A stretch of 32,686 nt of DNA from Avibacterium endocarditidis (GTDB lineage Bacteria; Pseudomonadota; Gammaproteobacteria; Enterobacterales; Pasteurellaceae): the NCBI RefSeq assembly GCF_002921145.1, contig NZ_PQVI01000126.1, forward strand, positions 1-32,686. Reading direction: 5' to 3'. The position numbers and the translations under genes are program-made. Under the pieces are notes generated by a model that saw only the letters and a list, made by a program, of their open reading frames with translations, did no database searches and was not told where the DNA came from. Shown here one piece after another: positions 16,712 through 24,478 of this stretch (position 1 is its first letter; each line of letters opens with the position of its first letter).

Positions 16712-18630
16712 CTTTCGCTCTCCTTGTGCGTAAGGCAAAGGCGCTCAATAATGCACCAAACGCCATTAAGGTTGCACCAATCCACAGCCAACGAACAAAA
16801 GGCTTGTAATGCAGACGGAACGAAAATTCGCCCGCGCCAAGTTTATCACCCATCACAATATAAATATCGCCAAGCAAGTTCCAATATAGCCCCATTCCGA
16901 CATATTCATCGTGCGCACTTCGTAATAACGGCGTTCAGGACAAAGTGCGGTGATTTTTTCGCCGTTTTTTGTTATCTCAAATTGCGCCACTTCACTGGTG
17001 TAATTCGGCCCGAGTTCATTACGAAAACCAAGGTAGTGAAACGCATAGCCGTTGAGCATTTGGCTTTGGTTAGGCGATAAGCGCACGCCAATTTCACTGG
17101 CAAAATAGCTCGACATTGTCGCGCCAATCACCGTGAGTGCTAGCCCACAATGGGCAATCACCATTGCCCAACGCTTTAAGGAAAGGGATCGCCACGCGCC
17201 CCAAAGGGTAACGCCAAGCAACCAAAACGCCAAGCTAATTAACGCAAAGGGCAAGGCCTGAAAATGTAAGGTTTCATCATTTTGAATGGTGAATGCGATC
17301 ATTGCATAAGCAAGCCCACAGGCAGGAATTAGCAATAAGACATTGCGGCGCAACAAAGTGCGGTGGATTTTTTTTTTTTCCAAAATGCACTGACGACAAA
17401 AATCATCGCCAGCAATGCCAGCACAATAAGGGGCAAGAAAATGGTGTTAAAGTAAGGTGCGCCGACAGAAATCGAACCCCAGCCCATTGTGCTAAATAGC
17501 ATTGGATAAAATGTGCCTAAAAATACGCTTGCCGTGGCGACCGCCACCAAAATATTGGCAATGAGCATTAGGCTTTCTTTAGAAAAAAGGAAAAATGCAC
17601 CGCACTATTTTCATTTGAGCGTACATTCACTTTCAACGCAAATAAGGTGAGCGAGAAGTGGTGAGCAAGAAAAGAGCATTAACAACGCCATTCCTCGCTC
17701 GCCGTCCATAGCAAAAGCGTGTACAGAAGTCAGCACGCCCGAACGCACAATAAACGTACCTAATAAACTGAATGCAAAGGCAAACAGAGAAAATAAAATC
17801 GTCCAATAATGAAAAACGCCACGTTGTTCGCTCACGGATAAACTATGTAATAGCCCCAGCCCAAGTAACCACGGCATTAATGAGGCGTTTTCAACTGGGT
17901 CCCAGAACCACCAGCCACCCCAACCAAGCTCGTAATATGCCCACCACGCGCCGAGCATTATGCCTAAGGTTAAAAAGAACCAAGAAACCAGCACCCAAGG
18001 GCGTGTCCAGCGAGCCAGCGCGGCATCAAAATGTCCGCTTAACAAAGTAGCAAGGGTGAGAGCAAAATTCACCGCAAAGCCTACATAGCCAAAATAAAGC
18101 AACGGAGGGTGAAAAATTAATCCTACATCTTGCAGCATCGGGTTAAGATCACGCCCTTCTAAAGGGCTAGGAAATAAACGCTCAAAAGGATTGGAGAAAA
18201 ATACGATAAACAGCGCAAAGCCAAAACACAGCAAGCCTAAAATAGACAGGGTTCGGCTAGCAATAATAGGGTCGATTTTACGGCTAAAAAAGGCAAAGGC
18301 CATTGTCCATAATCCCAACGAAAATAGCCAAAACAGCATTGAGCCTTCGTGTCCGCCCCAAGTAGCGGCAATTTTGAAAAATTGCGGTAAGGCAGAATTG
18401 GAATGCGCTGCCACATATTGCACAGAAAAATCATCAGTCGCAAAGCAATAAGCCAGCCCAAGCAAGGAAAGGGTGGTAAAAATCCCAAACAGATAACTCA
18501 AATTCCACGCCGAGGTAATCAGGTGCGGATTGCCTTGTTTAATCCCAATATGCGGCACAATTGCCAACAGCAATGCGGAAACAAGAGCAAAAAGTAAAGC
18601 AAGAAAAGCAAGTTCTGGGATCATTGTCAT
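16704..18630 (-). CDS. nrfE: NrfE/CcmF-type cytochrome c haem lyase subunit, broken by four indels
   Basis: Polytopic inner-membrane core of the haem lyase, which attaches haem to the CXXCK motif of NrfA. The first 320 residues show many membrane helices and the WWD haem-binding domain [20 protein letters not shown], with flanking [11 protein letters not shown]. The frame is then lost four times: in the A4 at 17670-17673, the A6 at 17583-17588, the T12 at 17368-17379 and near 16895. Reading through them gives [72 protein letters not shown] and a stop at 16704, 642 residues in all, the normal CcmF/NrfE length. CcmF is the alternative; the nrf context and the CXXCK site in NrfA favour NrfE. Confidence 0.85.
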
Positions 18631-18731
18631 ATTCGTTGGTTAATTTATTGTGTATTTTAGAGAAAATGCGTAGCAATGTCATTGTGTTATGCAGAAAAAT
18701 CATCAAGCTCATTCTCAATTCAATCAGTGAT

Positions 18732-18750
18732 AAAAATGCGTAAAAACGCA
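18732..18750 (-). other. Terminator-like hairpin upstream of nrfE
   Basis: On the minus strand TGCGT-TTTT-ACGCA is followed by TTTTTA. The stem is only 5 bp, so termination would be weak. A near-match uptake sequence (AAGAGCGGT on the minus strand) lies beside it. It sits about 100 nt before the nrfE start, in a 250-bp gap that otherwise holds nothing recognisable. Confidence 0.4.
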
Positions 18751-18826
18751 CCGCTCTTTATTTTCAGCAAATGACTTTTCTCGTCAGTTTTCCCTTTGCC
18801 ATTAGGGGATTTACGGCAAAAAACCA

Positions 18827-18856
18827 TTAAAACAAAGGCGAACACCTTGGTTCGCC
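18827..18856 (-). terminator. Rho-independent terminator after nrfD
   Basis: A perfect 7-bp stem GGCGAAC/GTTCGCC with a 6-nt loop (18837-18856), read on the minus strand, is followed by TTTGTTTTAATGG. It lies 24 bp past the nrfD stop. It suggests nrfABCD ends here and that nrfE-G needs its own promoter or read-through. Confidence 0.75.
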
Positions 18857-18880
18857 CTGATCATCATTGATGGATTTTTG

Positions 18881-19843
18881 TTAGGCTAAAGTCATTTGCC
18901 CTGCGTATAAAATAAAGTAACGCAAGCAAAGTACGCCGATTAAGCCCAATCCTGCCACAATCAGCATAAAGCCTTTTTGGTGTTTGAGTTTCTCACCGGC
19001 AATAGCGTTGAGTAAGAGGGGTAACACAATCCCAATGCCTACCACGCCGATCCAGAAGACATTCGCCCAGAAGCCACCAGAAAGTGCGGTGTGAAATGCC
19101 ACGGTTTTTTGTCCGCCACCAAGGTATAAACCAAAGAAGAAAGCGAACAATAAGAAGGCTTCAATCAATACCACTGGCTGTTCAAATTTATGCAAGAACG
19201 CCAAGCCTTTGGAATGAGTGCTTTCTTTGGTGCATAAAATGGTGAAGAAAATCAATGCCGCAATGCCCGATGACGTACCTGATGCCAAGAATAACACTGG
19301 TAAGACAGGGTTATTTAGCATTGGATAGCTCACTAATGCAGAAAGTAAGAACCCTGTATATGCCCCTAACGCCACGCTGAGCAATAAAGTAATGATCTCA
19401 ATAGCATTGGTAAACTTAGCAGCAATATCAATGATTTTCTCTGCAAAATTTGCAAGTTTCGGCACAAAACGCTTCACAAGGCTCAACACCAGTGATTTGA
19501 AGATAATCGCCAACCATAATACCAAGAACAACATATACACTTGGAACAACATCACCCCTGCGGACATAATGGAGGTGTGATGATAATTAAACATCAAATA
19601 CCAGAATGTCCAAGGTTTGGTTAAGTGGAAAATCAATAGCAATAAGCCAATGGTAATGCTAATCGGTGCGAGCAAGGCATTAACCTTTAAGATATTGTTT
19701 TCTTCCGGGCGTTCCCCTGCCAATCCTGCACGTTTTAACAATACCGCAAGCATTGTCGCCCCTGCGGAAATCCCTAATAAAAAGAGATAAATCGCAATCG
19801 GCCCGTCCCATACTAAAGATGGGAAATGAAATGGACTGTTCAT
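18881..19843 (-). CDS. nrfD: NrfD, membrane quinol-oxidising subunit of nitrite reduction
   Basis: Integral membrane protein of the NrfD/PsrC family that takes electrons from menaquinol and passes them to NrfC. The 320-residue product has about 8-9 hydrophobic segments, starting with PSLVWDGPIAIYLFLLGISAG, then PWTFWYLMFNYHHTSIMSAG, VLPVLFLASGTSSGIAAL and a C-terminal pair. Length is typical. Its ATG overlaps the nrfC TGA as ATGA, so the two are translationally coupled. An uptake sequence lies inside at 19082-19090. A terminator follows the stop. No frameshift. Confidence 0.95.
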   Translation of the reverse strand: MNSPFHFPSLVWDGPIAIYLFLLGISAGATMLAVLLKRAGLAGERPEENNILKVNALLAPISITIGLLLLIFHLTKPWTFWYLMFNYHHTSIMSAGVMLFQVYMLFLVLWLAIIFKSLVLSLVKRFVPKLANFAEKIIDIAAKFTNAIEIITLLLSVALGAYTGFLLSALVSYPMLNNPVLPVLFLASGTSSGIAALIFFTILCTKESTHSKGLAFLHKFEQPVVLIEAFLLFAFFFGLYLGGGQKTVAFHTALSGGFWANVFWIGVVGIGIVLPLLLNAIAGEKLKHQKGFMLIVAGLGLIGVLCLRYFILYAGQMTLA

Positions 19844-20517
19844 CGTCTGATCTCCCCTGCTCTAGCTGGAACGTGGTAAAGATTTGGATCTGTACCTAAT
19901 TCAACTTTTGTACGATAGGTTTGTTTTTCTTTCAGTTTCAAAGAAATTTCACTTTGCGGATCGTTGGTATCCCCAAAGGTTAGGGCTTTGGTTGGGCAAG
20001 CCTCTACACAAGCTGGCTGTTTACCTTTTGCCAAATTCGTATCGCGACAGAAGTTACATTTATCGGCAGATTTATACACTGGGTGGATAAAGCGCACGCG
20101 ATATGGGCATACGGCAATACAGTATTGGCAGCCTACGCACAAATCTTTATGCACATCAACAATACCAGTGGAGGCATCAATATATGAAGCCCCTGTTGGA
20201 CACACAGCAACACAAGGTGCATTGGTACAATGCTGGCACGAATGACGGAAAAACTCATATTTCACGTCAGGAAATTCGCCATAAGGTTCGCTACGAATAA
20301 TTTCTAAACGTGAAACGCCTTCTGGCACTTGGTTGGTTTCACGGCACGCGTCCATACAAGCGGTACAACCAATACAAGCGGTTTCATCGTGCAACATTGC
20401 ATAACGAATTGGCTTTTCTTCTGCCTTATCTTGTGCTACTGACTTAATTGTTGTTCCTGTCATTAGGATCAAAGCACCCATTCCAGAAACAAAATTACGG
20501 CGTGAGCAAGTTGTCAT
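19840..20517 (-). CDS. nrfC: NrfC, periplasmic ferredoxin-type 4x[4Fe-4S] protein
   Basis: Passes electrons from NrfD to the pentahaem NrfB. The 225-residue product starts with a twin-arginine signal, MTTCSRRNFVSGMGALILM, so it is probably exported folded with its clusters. Four cysteine clusters are visible: CIGCTACMDACRETNQVP, CQHCTNAPCVAVCP, CVGCQYCIAVCPYRVRF and CNFC with ACVEACPTKAL. Length matches the family. The ATG overlaps the corrected nrfB TGA, and the stop overlaps the nrfD ATG: a tightly coupled gene trio. No frameshift. Confidence 0.96.
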   Translation of the reverse strand: MTTCSRRNFVSGMGALILMTGTTIKSVAQDKAEEKPIRYAMLHDETACIGCTACMDACRETNQVPEGVSRLEIIRSEPYGEFPDVKYEFFRHSCQHCTNAPCVAVCPTGASYIDASTGIVDVHKDLCVGCQYCIAVCPYRVRFIHPVYKSADKCNFCRDTNLAKGKQPACVEACPTKALTFGDTNDPQSEISLKLKEKQTYRTKVELGTDPNLYHVPARAGEIRR

Positions 20518-21135
20518 TTGTTATCCTTTTGTTCGCTGGTCGGGTCAAGATCTTTTAAGGCTTTGCGTTTTTGTTGTTCTCCGTGACAATCCACGCAAAG
20601 TTTAACACGTTGTTTTTCTCAATGCCTTTCATTGCGTCTTTTTCTGGGTGCAAGGTATGGCACGCAGCACAAGGCAATTTTATTGCGTGAACATCGTGCG
20701 CCCAAAGTTTCTCGCGTAATTTTTCAGGACGGTGACAAGAGAAGCAAACTTGATTTTGCTCTTGCACAGAGAACATTGGTTTTTGTCAGAGAAAATATCA
20801 CTTTCAAAACGCATTACATCTTTTGCACCACGGCGGTGATTTTCAGAGATATTACCGTGGCAGCTCACACAAGTAATCGGCTTGCCTGTGCTTGGATTGG
20901 TTTTGGATAAGTGCGTACCGTGGAATTTACCAAAATGTAAATCACCGCCCGATTGTTCATCAGTGGCTTCTAATTTATGGCATTTCGCACAGTATTCATT
21001 GGGGTTACGCTGATTTTCTAACGTAGGTTGATAGCTTAATTCAGTGTTTTCTGTATTAGCTTGTGCAGGCAAAGCCAAGATCATCGCCCCTAATAAGGCG
21101 GTAAGCTTTACCATTTTCTTTAATACAACGTTCAT
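20514..21135 (-). CDS. nrfB: NrfB, periplasmic pentahaem cytochrome c (two frameshifts)
   Basis: Electron donor to NrfA. A signal peptide (MNVVLKKMVKLTALLGAMIL, cleaved after AQA) is followed by haem motifs CAKCH and CVSCH. The frame is then lost near 20778-20784. In the next frame MFSVQEQNQVCFSCHRPEK and CAACH continue. It is lost again in the T5 run 20613-20617; the third frame gives CVDCHGEQQKRKAL and a TGA at 20514 that overlaps the nrfC ATG as ATGA. Restored, the product is about 207 residues with five CXXCH haem sites, as in E. coli NrfB. Recovery of both the fifth haem and the operon overlap makes sequence error more likely than decay. Confidence 0.92.
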
Positions 21136-21167
21136 TTCTTATTACCTCAAATTTTCGTTCAAAATAG

Positions 21168-21232
21168 ACCGCACTTTAGTTTTCTTCCCACTTTAAGGTT
21201 TCTTCCTAAGTCGGCACTTAATAAAGTGCGGT
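21168..21232 (-). terminator. Inverted pair of uptake sequences between nrfA and nrfB (partial terminator)
   Basis: ACCGCACTTTA (21168-21178) and TAAAGTGCGGT (21222-21232) form an 11-bp perfect stem around a 43-nt loop. On the minus strand the stem is followed by CTATTTTG. It lies just after the nrfA stop and 33 bp before nrfB. The long loop and poor T-tract suggest partial termination or 3'-end protection, which would favour nrfA over nrfBCD expression (inference). Confidence 0.55.
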
Positions 21233-21243
21233 TACTTTTTGGC

Positions 21244-22735
21244 TTATTTTGCTGGTGGAGCTTTCTCCATTAAGCCTTTTTCTAACGCTTCTTTATTCCA
21301 TTGTGGAACAACTTCTTTGAGGAATTTCGCTTTCGCTGCACGTTCTTTTTCAATATCAATGCCCATTGCTTTCCACGCATTTTCAGCTGTTGAAATATCT
21401 GGGTAATTGATTGGCTGTTTCACACCGTGTTTGGTGAGAATAATGGCTAATTTAGTACGCGCGTCAGCAATACGATCTAAGCCTGTTGCAATGGTTTTTA
21501 AGATAATATCTGGTGCGTGAATATGGCCACCGTGGCCCGCAGCAGAATAATCCCAACGCCATTGTGCGTGACGGATAGCTTGTAATGCTGGTTTCATTTC
21601 TTCTTCTGTTGCACCTGCGTCCCAAGCCGCTTTCGCTTCAAAGTGCGCTTTCACGATTTGGTCTTCAAGTTTAATCATCACGTCTTTGATGTCTTTTTTA
21701 TGACCTGCCACCACTTTGGTTAAAGTTTCTTTGCTTTGATCGTGGCAGTTTGCACAGGTGTTTTCAAAAGAATCAAGCGGATTACCAATTTTGTGGTCTG
21801 TGTAAACTTTACCATCAGCCCCTTGTACTTTTGGCATATGGCAATCCACACAGGTTACACCATTTTTACCGTGTGTGCCTTGCAACCAAGTTTCATAGTC
21901 TGGGTGCTGTGCTTTTAACATTGGTGTTTTAGAGATAGAGTGAATCCAATCGTAGAATTCGATATTGTCATAGTATTGTTCCATACTATCCACATCTACC
22001 CCTTTCATCCAAGGGAATACCACATTGTTTACCATTTTTATCAAAGTAATATTCAACGTGGCAGTTAGCACAAATTGCGCCACGTTTGTCTGTTTTGTCT
22101 AAATGTGCGAAGTCTTTTCCGATCGCATCTAAGGCGCGTAAAACGTGCGGACGAGCGATGCGTAAAGCAGGTTTACCTTCTGCAAAATCTTTTGATGTGG
22201 TGTCGTGGCAGTCAGCACAGCCGATAGAATTTACCACTTCAGCCCCACCTTTTGCCCATTTGCCGTTGAAGTATTCTTCTTCACCCCATTCAGCAATTAA
22301 ACGTGGCACATCTGGGCCTTTACACGTCCAACACGCCATTGGTTGTGGGCCGCTGTTAGCATCAAACGGCGCACCTGTACGCAAAATATTGCGCACGTCA
22401 GTTACAGTATAAAAGTGACCACGCGGTTTGTTATATTCTTTTGAGAACGCATAACCGCCCCATAGAACGATTAATCTTGGATCAACTTCATCAGCGTAAA
22501 CAATTTCAGAAGATTTTGCCGTATCCGCCCAACCTTGATATTGTTTTGGGTATTTTTCCGCAAATTTTTCACTGATAGTTTCAATTTTCAAATCAGGATT
22601 CGGTTTTGCCAGTTCTTCACGGGTAGGGGCACGTTTTTCCACCGCACTATTATCTACCGCCATAGCAGACGATGCCGCCGCTAAAGTTAATCCAGCCATT
22701 GCCAGAGAAGCTAGCGTTTTTCTGAAAATGTTCAC
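21244..22735 (-). CDS. nrfA: NrfA, periplasmic ammonia-forming cytochrome c nitrite reductase (one frameshift)
   Basis: Reduces nitrite to ammonium with six electrons in the periplasm. It starts at a GTG (22735) with GGAG upstream and a signal peptide ending SSAMA. The active-site haem motif is ACWTCKGPD (CXXCK), which needs the dedicated NrfEFG lyase. Haem motifs CADCH and [10 protein letters not shown] follow; then the frame slips by one extra base within 22028-22039, and the next frame continues [30 protein letters not shown] (haem 4) and [12 protein letters not shown] (haem 5). The restored length is 496 residues, normal. The catalytic region includes GHIHAPD. First gene of the cluster; the upstream control region is listed separately. 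Confidence 0.96.
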
Positions 22736-22811
22736 GATAATTACTCCATTAAAAGTTGATCAAGGGATATCCCACATTCGCAAAATGCACGTTCATTACA
22801 TGTTGTAAAAA

Positions 22812-22826
22812 TGATAATTTTTCTCA
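22812..22826. promoter_or_regulatory. Fur-box-like sequence in the nrfA leader region
   Basis: TGATAAT-T-TTTCTCA matches 12 of 14 defined positions of the 7-1-7 Fur pattern TGATAATnATTATCA. A second TGATAAT lies at 22839-22845. The region is AT-rich, so chance is a real possibility. Haem-rich NrfA would be a sensible iron-regulated gene. Confidence 0.3.
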
Positions 22827-22918
22827 TTAAAAACAAGGTGATAATGAATTAAGAGAAAGTTTTTCACGCTTAAAAATAACAAATTCATTCTCATCTTTCA
22901 GCGCTATTTTGCTATTTT

Positions 22919-22932
22919 TTGCGTTTGATCAA
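22919..22932 (-). promoter_or_regulatory. FNR-like site upstream of nrfA
   Basis: On the minus strand TTGAT-CAAA-CGCAA matches 8 of 10 defined positions of TTGAT-N4-ATCAA. It is centred about 190 bp before the nrfA start. FNR control of nrfA is well known in enterobacteria. No clear -10 hexamer was found at the spacing of a class II site, so the call is tentative. Confidence 0.35.
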
Positions 22933-22946
22933 TGTTTTTATTATAA

Positions 22947-22997
22947 ATAACCTTTTTGAGTTATTTTTGTTGCATAAAAATAACCCTTAAGAGTTAT
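22947..22997. promoter_or_regulatory. Two matching imperfect palindromes, 33 bp apart (NarP-like 7-2-7 geometry)
   Basis: ATAACCTTTTTGAGTTAT (22947-22964) and ATAACCCTTAAGAGTTAT (22980-22997) share both arms and their centres are 33 bp apart, close to three helical turns. Each can be read as two heptamers in tail-to-tail 7-2-7 order (TAACCCT-TA-AGAGTTA in the second), matching the NarL/NarP pattern TACYYMT-N2-AKRRGTA at 6 of 7 positions per half in the second copy. They lie between divergent nrfA and rhlB. Assignment to NarP is inference. Confidence 0.45.
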
Positions 22998-23177
22998 CAA
23001 AAGCCTAGATAATTTGCCTTTTCTAAGCATAACGGGGTAATTTATTCTTGATACAAAACAAGCTAAAAAGCAATAAAAAGAACAATAAATGCTACATTTT
23101 CAACCACCCTTTATTTATTCTCTTTTTTACAGACAAAGAAGAGAGAAAAGAAGAATTTTTGGGGATTTCTGTCCTTC

Positions 23178-23201
23178 GTGCTATGCTTAGCACAATTTTT
23201 T
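23178..23201 (+). terminator. Terminator-like hairpin in the rhlB leader
   Basis: GTGCTA-TGCT-TAGCAC (23178-23193) is a perfect 6-bp stem with a 4-nt loop, followed by AATTTTTT. It ends 29 nt before the rhlB ATG and has no gene upstream to terminate on this strand, so it may be a leader attenuator. The rest of 22998-23230 is AT-rich with no gene called. Confidence 0.5.
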
Positions 23202-23230
23202 CTCATAAAATCGAAAATAGTCAGATAACT

Positions 23231-24478
23231 ATGCAAAATGATCATTTAACTCAGCAACGTTTTGCTGATTTACCACTAAATCCAAGCGTATTACAGTGTT
23301 TAGAAAAAAACGGTTTTGAATACTGCACGCCAATCCAAGCCCTTTCTTTGCCTATCACCCTTGCAGGGCGTGATGTAGCAGGGCAAGCGCAAACAGGCAC
23401 AGGCAAAACAATGGCCTTTCTCACCGCCACCTTTCATCATTTATTAAGCGAAAATTCGCAGCATAATGCCACGCAACCGCGTGCGTTAATTTTAGCGCCC
23501 ACGCGCGAGCTTGCCGTGCAAATTAGCAATGATGGCGCGGCGCTCTCACAAGCCACAGGGCTAAAAATGGGACTAGCTTATGGGGGCGATGGCTACGATA
23601 AACAGCTTAAAGTGATTGAGCAAGGCATTGATATTTTAATTGGTACAACAGGACGCGTGATTGATTACGTCAAACAAGGCATTATTCGCTTAACGGATAT
23701 TGAAGTGGTGGTGCTAGATGAAGCAGATCGAATGTTCGATCTGGGTTTTATCAAGGATATTCGCTACTTACTGAGAAAATGTCCGCCCCCTGCTGAACGC
23801 TTAACAATGCTCTTTTCCGCTACCCTTTCTTATAAAGTGCGTGAGCTTGCCTTTGAAGATATGAATGATCCTGAATATGTGGAAGTTGAGCCACTGCAAA
23901 AAACAGGCCACCGCATTAAAGAAGAACTGTTTTATCCGTCTAACCAAGACAAAATGGCGTTATTAATGACGTTGTTGGAAGAAGAATGGCCAGAGCGTTG
24001 CATTATTTTCGCCAACACCAAACATCGCTGTGAAGAAATTTGGGGCTATTTAGCCGCTGATGGACACCGTGTTGGCTTGCTAACTGGTGATGTTGCGCAG
24101 AAAAAACGCCTTGCTTTGTTGCAACAATTTACCTCAGGTCAATTGGATATTTTAGTGGCGACTGATGTTGCTGCGCGTGGCTTACATATTCCTGATGTTA
24201 CGCACGTTTTCAACTATGATTTGCCTGATGATCGCGAAGATTATGTGCATCGCATTGGACGTACAGGGCGCGCAGGCGAAAGTGGCGTTTCCATTAGTTT
24301 TGCTTGTGAAGAATATGCAATGAATTTACCTGCCATTGAAGAATATATTGGCCACTCCATTCCAGTGAGCCAATATGATCCGCAAGCGCTACTCAGTGAT
24401 TTGCCAAAACCTTACCGCAAACGCACTGGGCAAAGCCACTATCAAAATAATAAACGCAATTTTAAAAAGTGTTATTAA
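23231..24478 (+). CDS. rhlB: ATP-dependent RNA helicase RhlB (DEAD-box)
   Basis: RNA helicase of the RNA degradosome, unwinding structured mRNA for exonucleolytic decay. The 415-residue product shows the Q-motif region ([13 protein letters not shown]), [37 protein letters not shown], then [26 protein letters not shown] and [13 protein letters not shown]. The frame is open upstream to 23048, but that 61-residue extension is Lys- and Asn-rich and unlike the family. The ATG at 23231 gives [16 protein letters not shown], the usual RhlB N-terminus, though without a clear Shine-Dalgarno. Divergent from nrfA; its terminator is an uptake-sequence pair. No frameshift. Confidence 0.95.

Follow-up and report, generated by a model that had tools for sequence, protein, structure and literature searches.

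Two 18-bp imperfect palindromes lie between the divergent genes nrfA and rhlB of Avibacterium endocarditidis, and their position raises two questions: which regulator they serve and which of the two genes they control. The window considered here is the whole 32,686-nucleotide stretch analysed (NZ_PQVI01000126.1), part of a 2.26-Mb draft assembly that is 93% complete (GCF_002921145.1; G000 in our numbering of genomes). An earlier note described twin palindromes 33 bp apart, about three helical turns, and direct reading of the sequence agrees. The proximal palindrome is ATAACCTTTTTGAGTTAT (22947-22964, centre 22955.5) and the distal palindrome is ATAACCCTTAAGAGTTAT (22980-22997, centre 22988.5), which puts the centres 33 bp apart. 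Symmetry differs between the two, with 8 of 9 pairs matched in the distal and just 5 of 9 in the proximal palindrome. The gene labels were also right: NCBIfam models confirm nrfA to the left on the minus strand and rhlB to the right on the plus strand. The features of the region, in window positions, are as follows.

23231 to 24478, plus strand: rhlB, RNA helicase, the divergent neighbour (NCBIfam)
23090 to 23096, minus strand: TGTAGCA box upstream of the palindrome pair, read from the sequence
22980 to 22997, no strand assigned: distal NarP-type 7-2-7 site, 63 bp upstream of the FNR-like centre, with the 16-mer TAACTCT-TA-AGGGTTA on the nrfA strand at 22981-22996
22968 to 22974, minus strand: linker box TGCAACA, which reads TGTAGCA in G004 and G006 and TGTGGCA in G001 and G002
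22947 to 22964, no strand assigned: proximal NarP-type 7-2-7 site, 30 bp upstream of the FNR-like centre, with the 16-mer TAACTCA-AA-AAGGTTA at 22948-22963
22919 to 22932, minus strand: FNR-like site TTGATCAAACGCAA, named by its match to the FNR consensus
22873 to 22881, minus strand: extended -10-like element TGTTATTTT for nrfA, its hexamer 47 bp downstream of the FNR centre
21244 to 22735, minus strand: nrfA, ammonia-forming cytochrome c nitrite reductase, its frame broken in the assembly (NCBIfam)

The heptamer consensus for NarP and NarL is TACYYMT. Both 16-mers are inverted heptamers with a 2-bp gap and fit the NarP 7-2-7 geometry that had been proposed for them, with A in place of C at position 3 (hereafter A3 and C3). 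The distal arms, TAACTCT and TAACCCT, match the consensus save at position 3; the proximal arms, TAACTCA and TAACCTT, are off at position 3 and carry one more mismatch each. The strict pattern ATAACY-N5-RRGTTAT matches the draft genome at these two palindromes and nowhere else, and its backwards control has no match. Simulating the window 400 times with an order-2 Markov model gives 0.03 occurrences of ATAAC-N8-GTTAT per window on average, and none of the simulated windows holds a pair of matches 60 bp or less apart.

We suggest, with a probability of roughly 82%, that the palindromes are a tandem NarP operator pair at the nrfA promoter, and it is likely that the pair is a genuine, well-conserved regulatory element. 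This reading of the sequence draws on the slots that the sites occupy relative to FNR, co-occurrence with narP, a replacement by TACC in one relative (G003), the shared recognition helix of NarP, and constraint on the arms. Counted against it are the 25 of 87 family-wide sites that fall off the slots, canonical and variant patterns that do not exceed their controls genome-wide, and the conservation of columns outside the arms.

Reading toward nrfA, 33 bp separate the distal from the proximal site, a further 30 bp lead to the FNR-like site, and the extended -10-like element follows after another 47 bp. Counted from the -10-like element, the FNR-like site would lie near -59.5 and the palindromes near -89.5 and -122.5. 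A simple sigma-70 scan of the region found no promoter, and an Rfam search of 22700-23300 for structured RNA returned no match. Each palindrome would bind one NarP dimer on its inverted heptamer pair, and the three sites, with 33 and 30 bp between centres, would share about one face of the DNA. When nitrate or nitrite is present and oxygen absent, phosphorylated NarP on both sites may help FNR activate the nrf genes, through direct interaction with FNR or RNA polymerase or through displacement of another protein. We infer the binding of NarP, cooperativity, activation and not repression, and the start site.

The layout has a known counterpart. The E. coli nrfA promoter is described with FNR at -41.5 and NarL/NarP at -74.5, where they displace IHF, about three turns apart (PMC5434802). 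The site there, like those of Avibacterium, consists of inverted heptamers 2 bp apart and about three turns upstream of FNR at the same gene. The Avibacterium arrangement differs in having A3 in all four arms, two sites 33 bp apart, and an FNR site predicted near -59.5 instead of -41.5. Within the family, predictions from 2007 concern four genomes abbreviated PM, AA, HI, and HD, presumably P. multocida, A. actinomycetemcomitans, H. influenzae, and H. ducreyi. NarP and FNR sites were predicted in these four Pasteurellaceae at nrfABCDEXFG (PMC1805755, Table 1), and family, gene, and FNR pairing are common to the table and our findings. The table gives presence only, without slots or A3 arms, for ten genomes that apparently include no Avibacterium. 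NarQP is reported to raise NrfA with nitrate in A. pleuropneumoniae (PMC12737762), and the engineered narG -89 7-2-7 site is given as TACCCCTAAAGGGGTA (PMC4549865). A search of the open literature for Avibacterium together with NarP found no paper; subscription papers lay outside the search. Our additions are the pairing of the sites, their A3 arms, and the pattern of slots; we claim no priority for variants at position 3.

Positions of sites across the family follow nrfA. The sample of upstream regions covers 90 of the 129 Pasteurellaceae genomes with an nrfA match (30 loci and 60 stretches), and 81 of the 90 regions have an FNR-like site (80 by the narrower FNR pattern of the slot scan). We scored 7-2-7 sites with position 3 left free, at 11.1 or more of 12.8 and within 130 bp of the FNR centre. 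The 80 regions yielded 87 sites, of which 34 lie at 30-31 bp and 28 at 62-64 bp; the other 25 include small groups at 21, 52, and 84-85 bp. A site at one of the two main distances is present in 54 of the 69 regions that have both an FNR-like and a 7-2-7 site. Both main slots are filled in Avibacterium, in G012 and G067, whose arms mix A3 and C3, and weakly in G066; other Pasteurellaceae carry TAC-type sites in these slots.

The gene under control is most likely nrfA, and of the suggestion that the palindromes could serve either divergent gene, the half concerning nrfA stands while that concerning rhlB is not supported. The palindromes do lie between the two genes, with the start of rhlB about 233 bp away. 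But across 171 loci, searched mostly with 1 to 3 kb of flank, rhlB adjoins nrfA only in Avibacterium, whereas the slots track nrfA family-wide; moreover, in G003, rhlB is apart from nrfA and the genome has no match to ATAACY-N6-RGTTAT. Control of rhlB by the palindromes is therefore barely credible.

Presence of the sites also coincides with presence of the regulator. We determined NarP status from E-values, treating 23 genomes with a best match no better than about 1e-29 as lacking NarP. A best 7-2-7 site scoring at least 11.4 is present in 68 of 77 upstream regions from genomes with NarP versus 2 of 13 from genomes without (Mann-Whitney P = 7.5e-8 on best-site scores, with genomes treated as independent and phylogeny left aside). 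Scores at or above the threshold also turn up in 16% and 17% of mononucleotide shuffles of these regions, so that some of the 68 sites are expected by chance. Two genomes without NarP form exceptions: G130, a draft in 120 contigs whose 14 fellow members of the genus in the collection have NarP, and G048, whose match is not TAC-like. The proximal site of G000 itself scores 11.1, below the threshold of this test. All seven Avibacterium genomes have narP, including G000, whose NarP matches that of G002 at 100% identity. The best NCBIfam model for the protein is NarP, at 298 bits under a cut-off of 343; by the NarL model, with its cut-off of 250, the protein scores 249.8.

A different regulator may instead have taken over a former NarP position, which would suit the absence of the strict pattern elsewhere in the genome, as with a regulator of a single target. 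The earlier note had raised such an operator, and a survey confined to GerE-type proteins speaks against it. G000 has just three in its 93% complete assembly: NarP and two that we take to be UhpA-like and MalT-like. Mixed A3/C3 sites also hold the slots in other genera that have narP. We therefore regard another regulator as very improbable and retain NarP as the protein predicted to bind.

If NarP is the regulator, the sites may still be in use or may be relics, once-canonical NarP sites that drifted to TAAC, bind poorly, and look alike across species because divergence is short. Conservation within the genus bears on this. Aligning the nrfA upstream regions of relatives, a check proposed with the original observation, bore it out: the stretch 22700-23300 is matched at least partly in all seven Avibacterium genomes, and both palindromes are kept at unchanged spacing in five of them (G000, G001, G002, G004, and G006). 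Over these five species, invariant columns number 20 of 20 in the arms, 8 of 16 in the inner positions, and 12 of 15 in the linker. In the flanks, 52 of 60 are invariant toward FNR and 19 of 60 upstream, the latter count being lowered by an indel since the comparison is ungapped. The second site of G004 is the exact reverse complement of its first. The two genomes without a good pair are G003 and G005. G003 has the left arms TACCTCT and TACCTAT at the same 33-bp spacing and weak right arms; in G005, the pair is degenerate although narP is present. Around the site, an 11-kb stretch of G000 is 95% identical to both G002 and G006, and the nearest nrfA half in the named collection is that of A. 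gallinarum NCTC 11188, at 91%.

Drift would account for the loss of the pair in G005 and the poor right arms in G003, for the loss of the consensus base at position 3 in all four arms, and for the good conservation of adjacent columns outside the arms; a broken nrfA would also be in keeping with it. However, invariance of all arm columns against half of the inner ones in five species, and a matched change in both arms of both sites, are not what drift favors. We consider relic sites improbable, and a functional NarP pair remains our preferred reading.

The break in nrfA takes the form of two overlapping frames, 21244-22083 and 21986-22735, with the change placed between about codons 235 and 250. 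To its left on the minus strand, the nrf operon continues with nrfC, nrfD, and part of nrfE by NCBIfam and an NrfB-like protein by Pfam. In the window at 17611-22735, nrfE matches the first half of its model only and the nrfB-like frame looks short. In nrfA, nrfE, and the nrfB-like gene, these defects may reflect either real decay or draft errors.

How unusual A3 is can be judged from the 68 sites of the co-occurrence test. Their 136 arms have C at position 3 in 103 cases, A in 29, T in 3, and G in 1 (T being about as likely as A by chance in AT-rich DNA), and by site the pairs are CC 43, AC 16, AA 6, and others 3. AA sites, those of the five Avibacterium genomes and G038, account for 12 of the 29 A3 arms, 10 of which are from Avibacterium; the remaining 17 are scattered over 17 genomes, and outside Avibacterium A3 is mostly in a single arm. 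Overall, 23 of the 68 site-bearing genomes have A3 arms, in several genera, Rodentibacter among them. Caviibacterium pharyngocola has ATAACTCCAATGAGTTAT where the proximal site would lie and, further upstream, a mixed ATAACTATAAAGAGGTAT.

The recognition helix of NarP, SEETVKVHIRNLLRKLN, aligns with that of NarL (1a04) and was compared in 50 of 140 genomes. The 30 best-matching genomes all share it unchanged, as do 19 of 20 further genomes hand-picked to include A3 bearers; the exception, G037, has C3 arms. A3 bearers with the identical helix include G012, G067, G068, G094, G115, G120, G122, and G124. An altered helix is thus rejected, by identity in 49 of 50 genomes. The proposal of a Pasteurellaceae variant of the NarP site holds insofar as A3 recurs in the family and fails insofar as the A3 arms, a minority that goes with an unchanged helix, make no separate type of site. 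To judge from these arms, A3 is a minority variant of the NarP site, and not a new specificity. As conjecture, A3 in all four arms would make weaker sites that are used as a pair.

Genome-wide patterns set limits to this variant. A genome scan of the kind that the earlier note had called for finds the strict palindrome pattern nowhere else in G000, and the pair is kept in close relatives, so that both outcomes named there as refuting are contradicted. The looser pattern gives no such contrast. Across 140 genomes, ATAACY-N6-RGTTAT matches in 55, with 0-3 matches per genome versus 0-9 for the backwards control (2 versus 1 in G000); it is no commoner than the control and thus provides no family-wide regulon signature. 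A genome-wide regulon defined by the canonical TACYYMT-N2-AKRRGTA was also tried and rejected, with 13 matches in G000 at up to one mismatch versus 13 for the backwards control. Exact canonical matches in G000 are two, before cstA and before a sodium/glutamate symporter gene named after its G002 counterpart. The cstA site, TACTCAT-AA-ATAAGTA (contig C99:77-92), is also in G002. NarP of A. pleuropneumoniae is reported to bind the cstA promoter (PMC12737762), and the retention of a TAC site there speaks against specificity having moved wholesale to TAAC.

The napF promoter offers a second test of position 3. Its Avibacterium site resembles the nrfA pair in having one A3 arm (TACTCAA-TT-CAGGTTA in four genomes, TACCTAA-TT-TGGGTTA in G005) and differs in being single, mixed in its arms, and downstream of the FNR-like site. 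Its score ranges from just 10.1 to 10.8 on the scale used for nrfA, and in G000 another place scores higher. Sites reaching 11.1 beside an FNR-like site are present in 7 of 53 napF-type upstream regions, some of which are probably from napF paralogues. Support from napF for A3 is weak.

These findings suggest that real NarP sites are overlooked by a model that insists on TAC. Together, the upstream regions form natural series that vary in their arms (CC, AC, or AA), in the number of sites (one or two), and in the distance to FNR under a near-constant regulator, and they lend themselves to measuring tolerance at position 3, the cooperativity of NarP, and its phasing with FNR. A general rule can be formulated, albeit a doubtful one that we put forward tentatively. 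A NarP dimer would sit at about whole turns upstream of FNR (21, 30, 52, 63, and 84 bp, or 2, 3, 5, 6, and 8 turns) on a constant face, with a heptamer relaxed to C or A at position 3, and Avibacterium would have a two-dimer, all-A3 array whose weak sites give a sharper nitrate threshold. Tests of phasing were exploratory, made after the pattern had been seen. At a score of 11.8 and up to 110 bp, the 13 distinct distances give P = 0.009, with 38, 44, and 68 bp off phase; over the full 260 bp, the 30 distinct distances give P = 0.13. At a score of 12.1, P becomes 0.019 and 0.16, respectively, with a best period of 11.5-11.6 and not 10.5.

The DNA beside the promoter has a history of its own. 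The first half of nrfA is closer to G003 (96% versus 90%) because a short tract has been replaced. A tract of ~340 bp at 22466-22808, which takes in the nrfA leader and the start of the gene, is 100% identical to G003 over 22500-22750 and just 83% to G002 and G006, and DNA outside it matches G002. With few exceptions, informative sites at 22466-22797 and 22802-22808 follow G003, and those at 22228-22424 and 22839-22943 follow G002. The pattern is that of a gene-conversion-like replacement that stops just short of the promoter.

Two further observations concern the upstream regions. An extra group of 7-2-7 sites, out of phase with the nearer slots, lies 140-149 bp upstream of the FNR centre in G016, G017, G018, G020, G022, G025, G026, G029, G033, G039, G097, G105, G107, G109, and G110. 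The heptamer TGTAGCA/TGCTACA is enriched, with 49 copies in 28 of 90 nrfA upstream regions where shuffles expect 5.8, and inverted pairs of it 123-127 bp apart are present in nine genomes (G020, G022, G025, G026, G039, G105, G107, G109, and G110).
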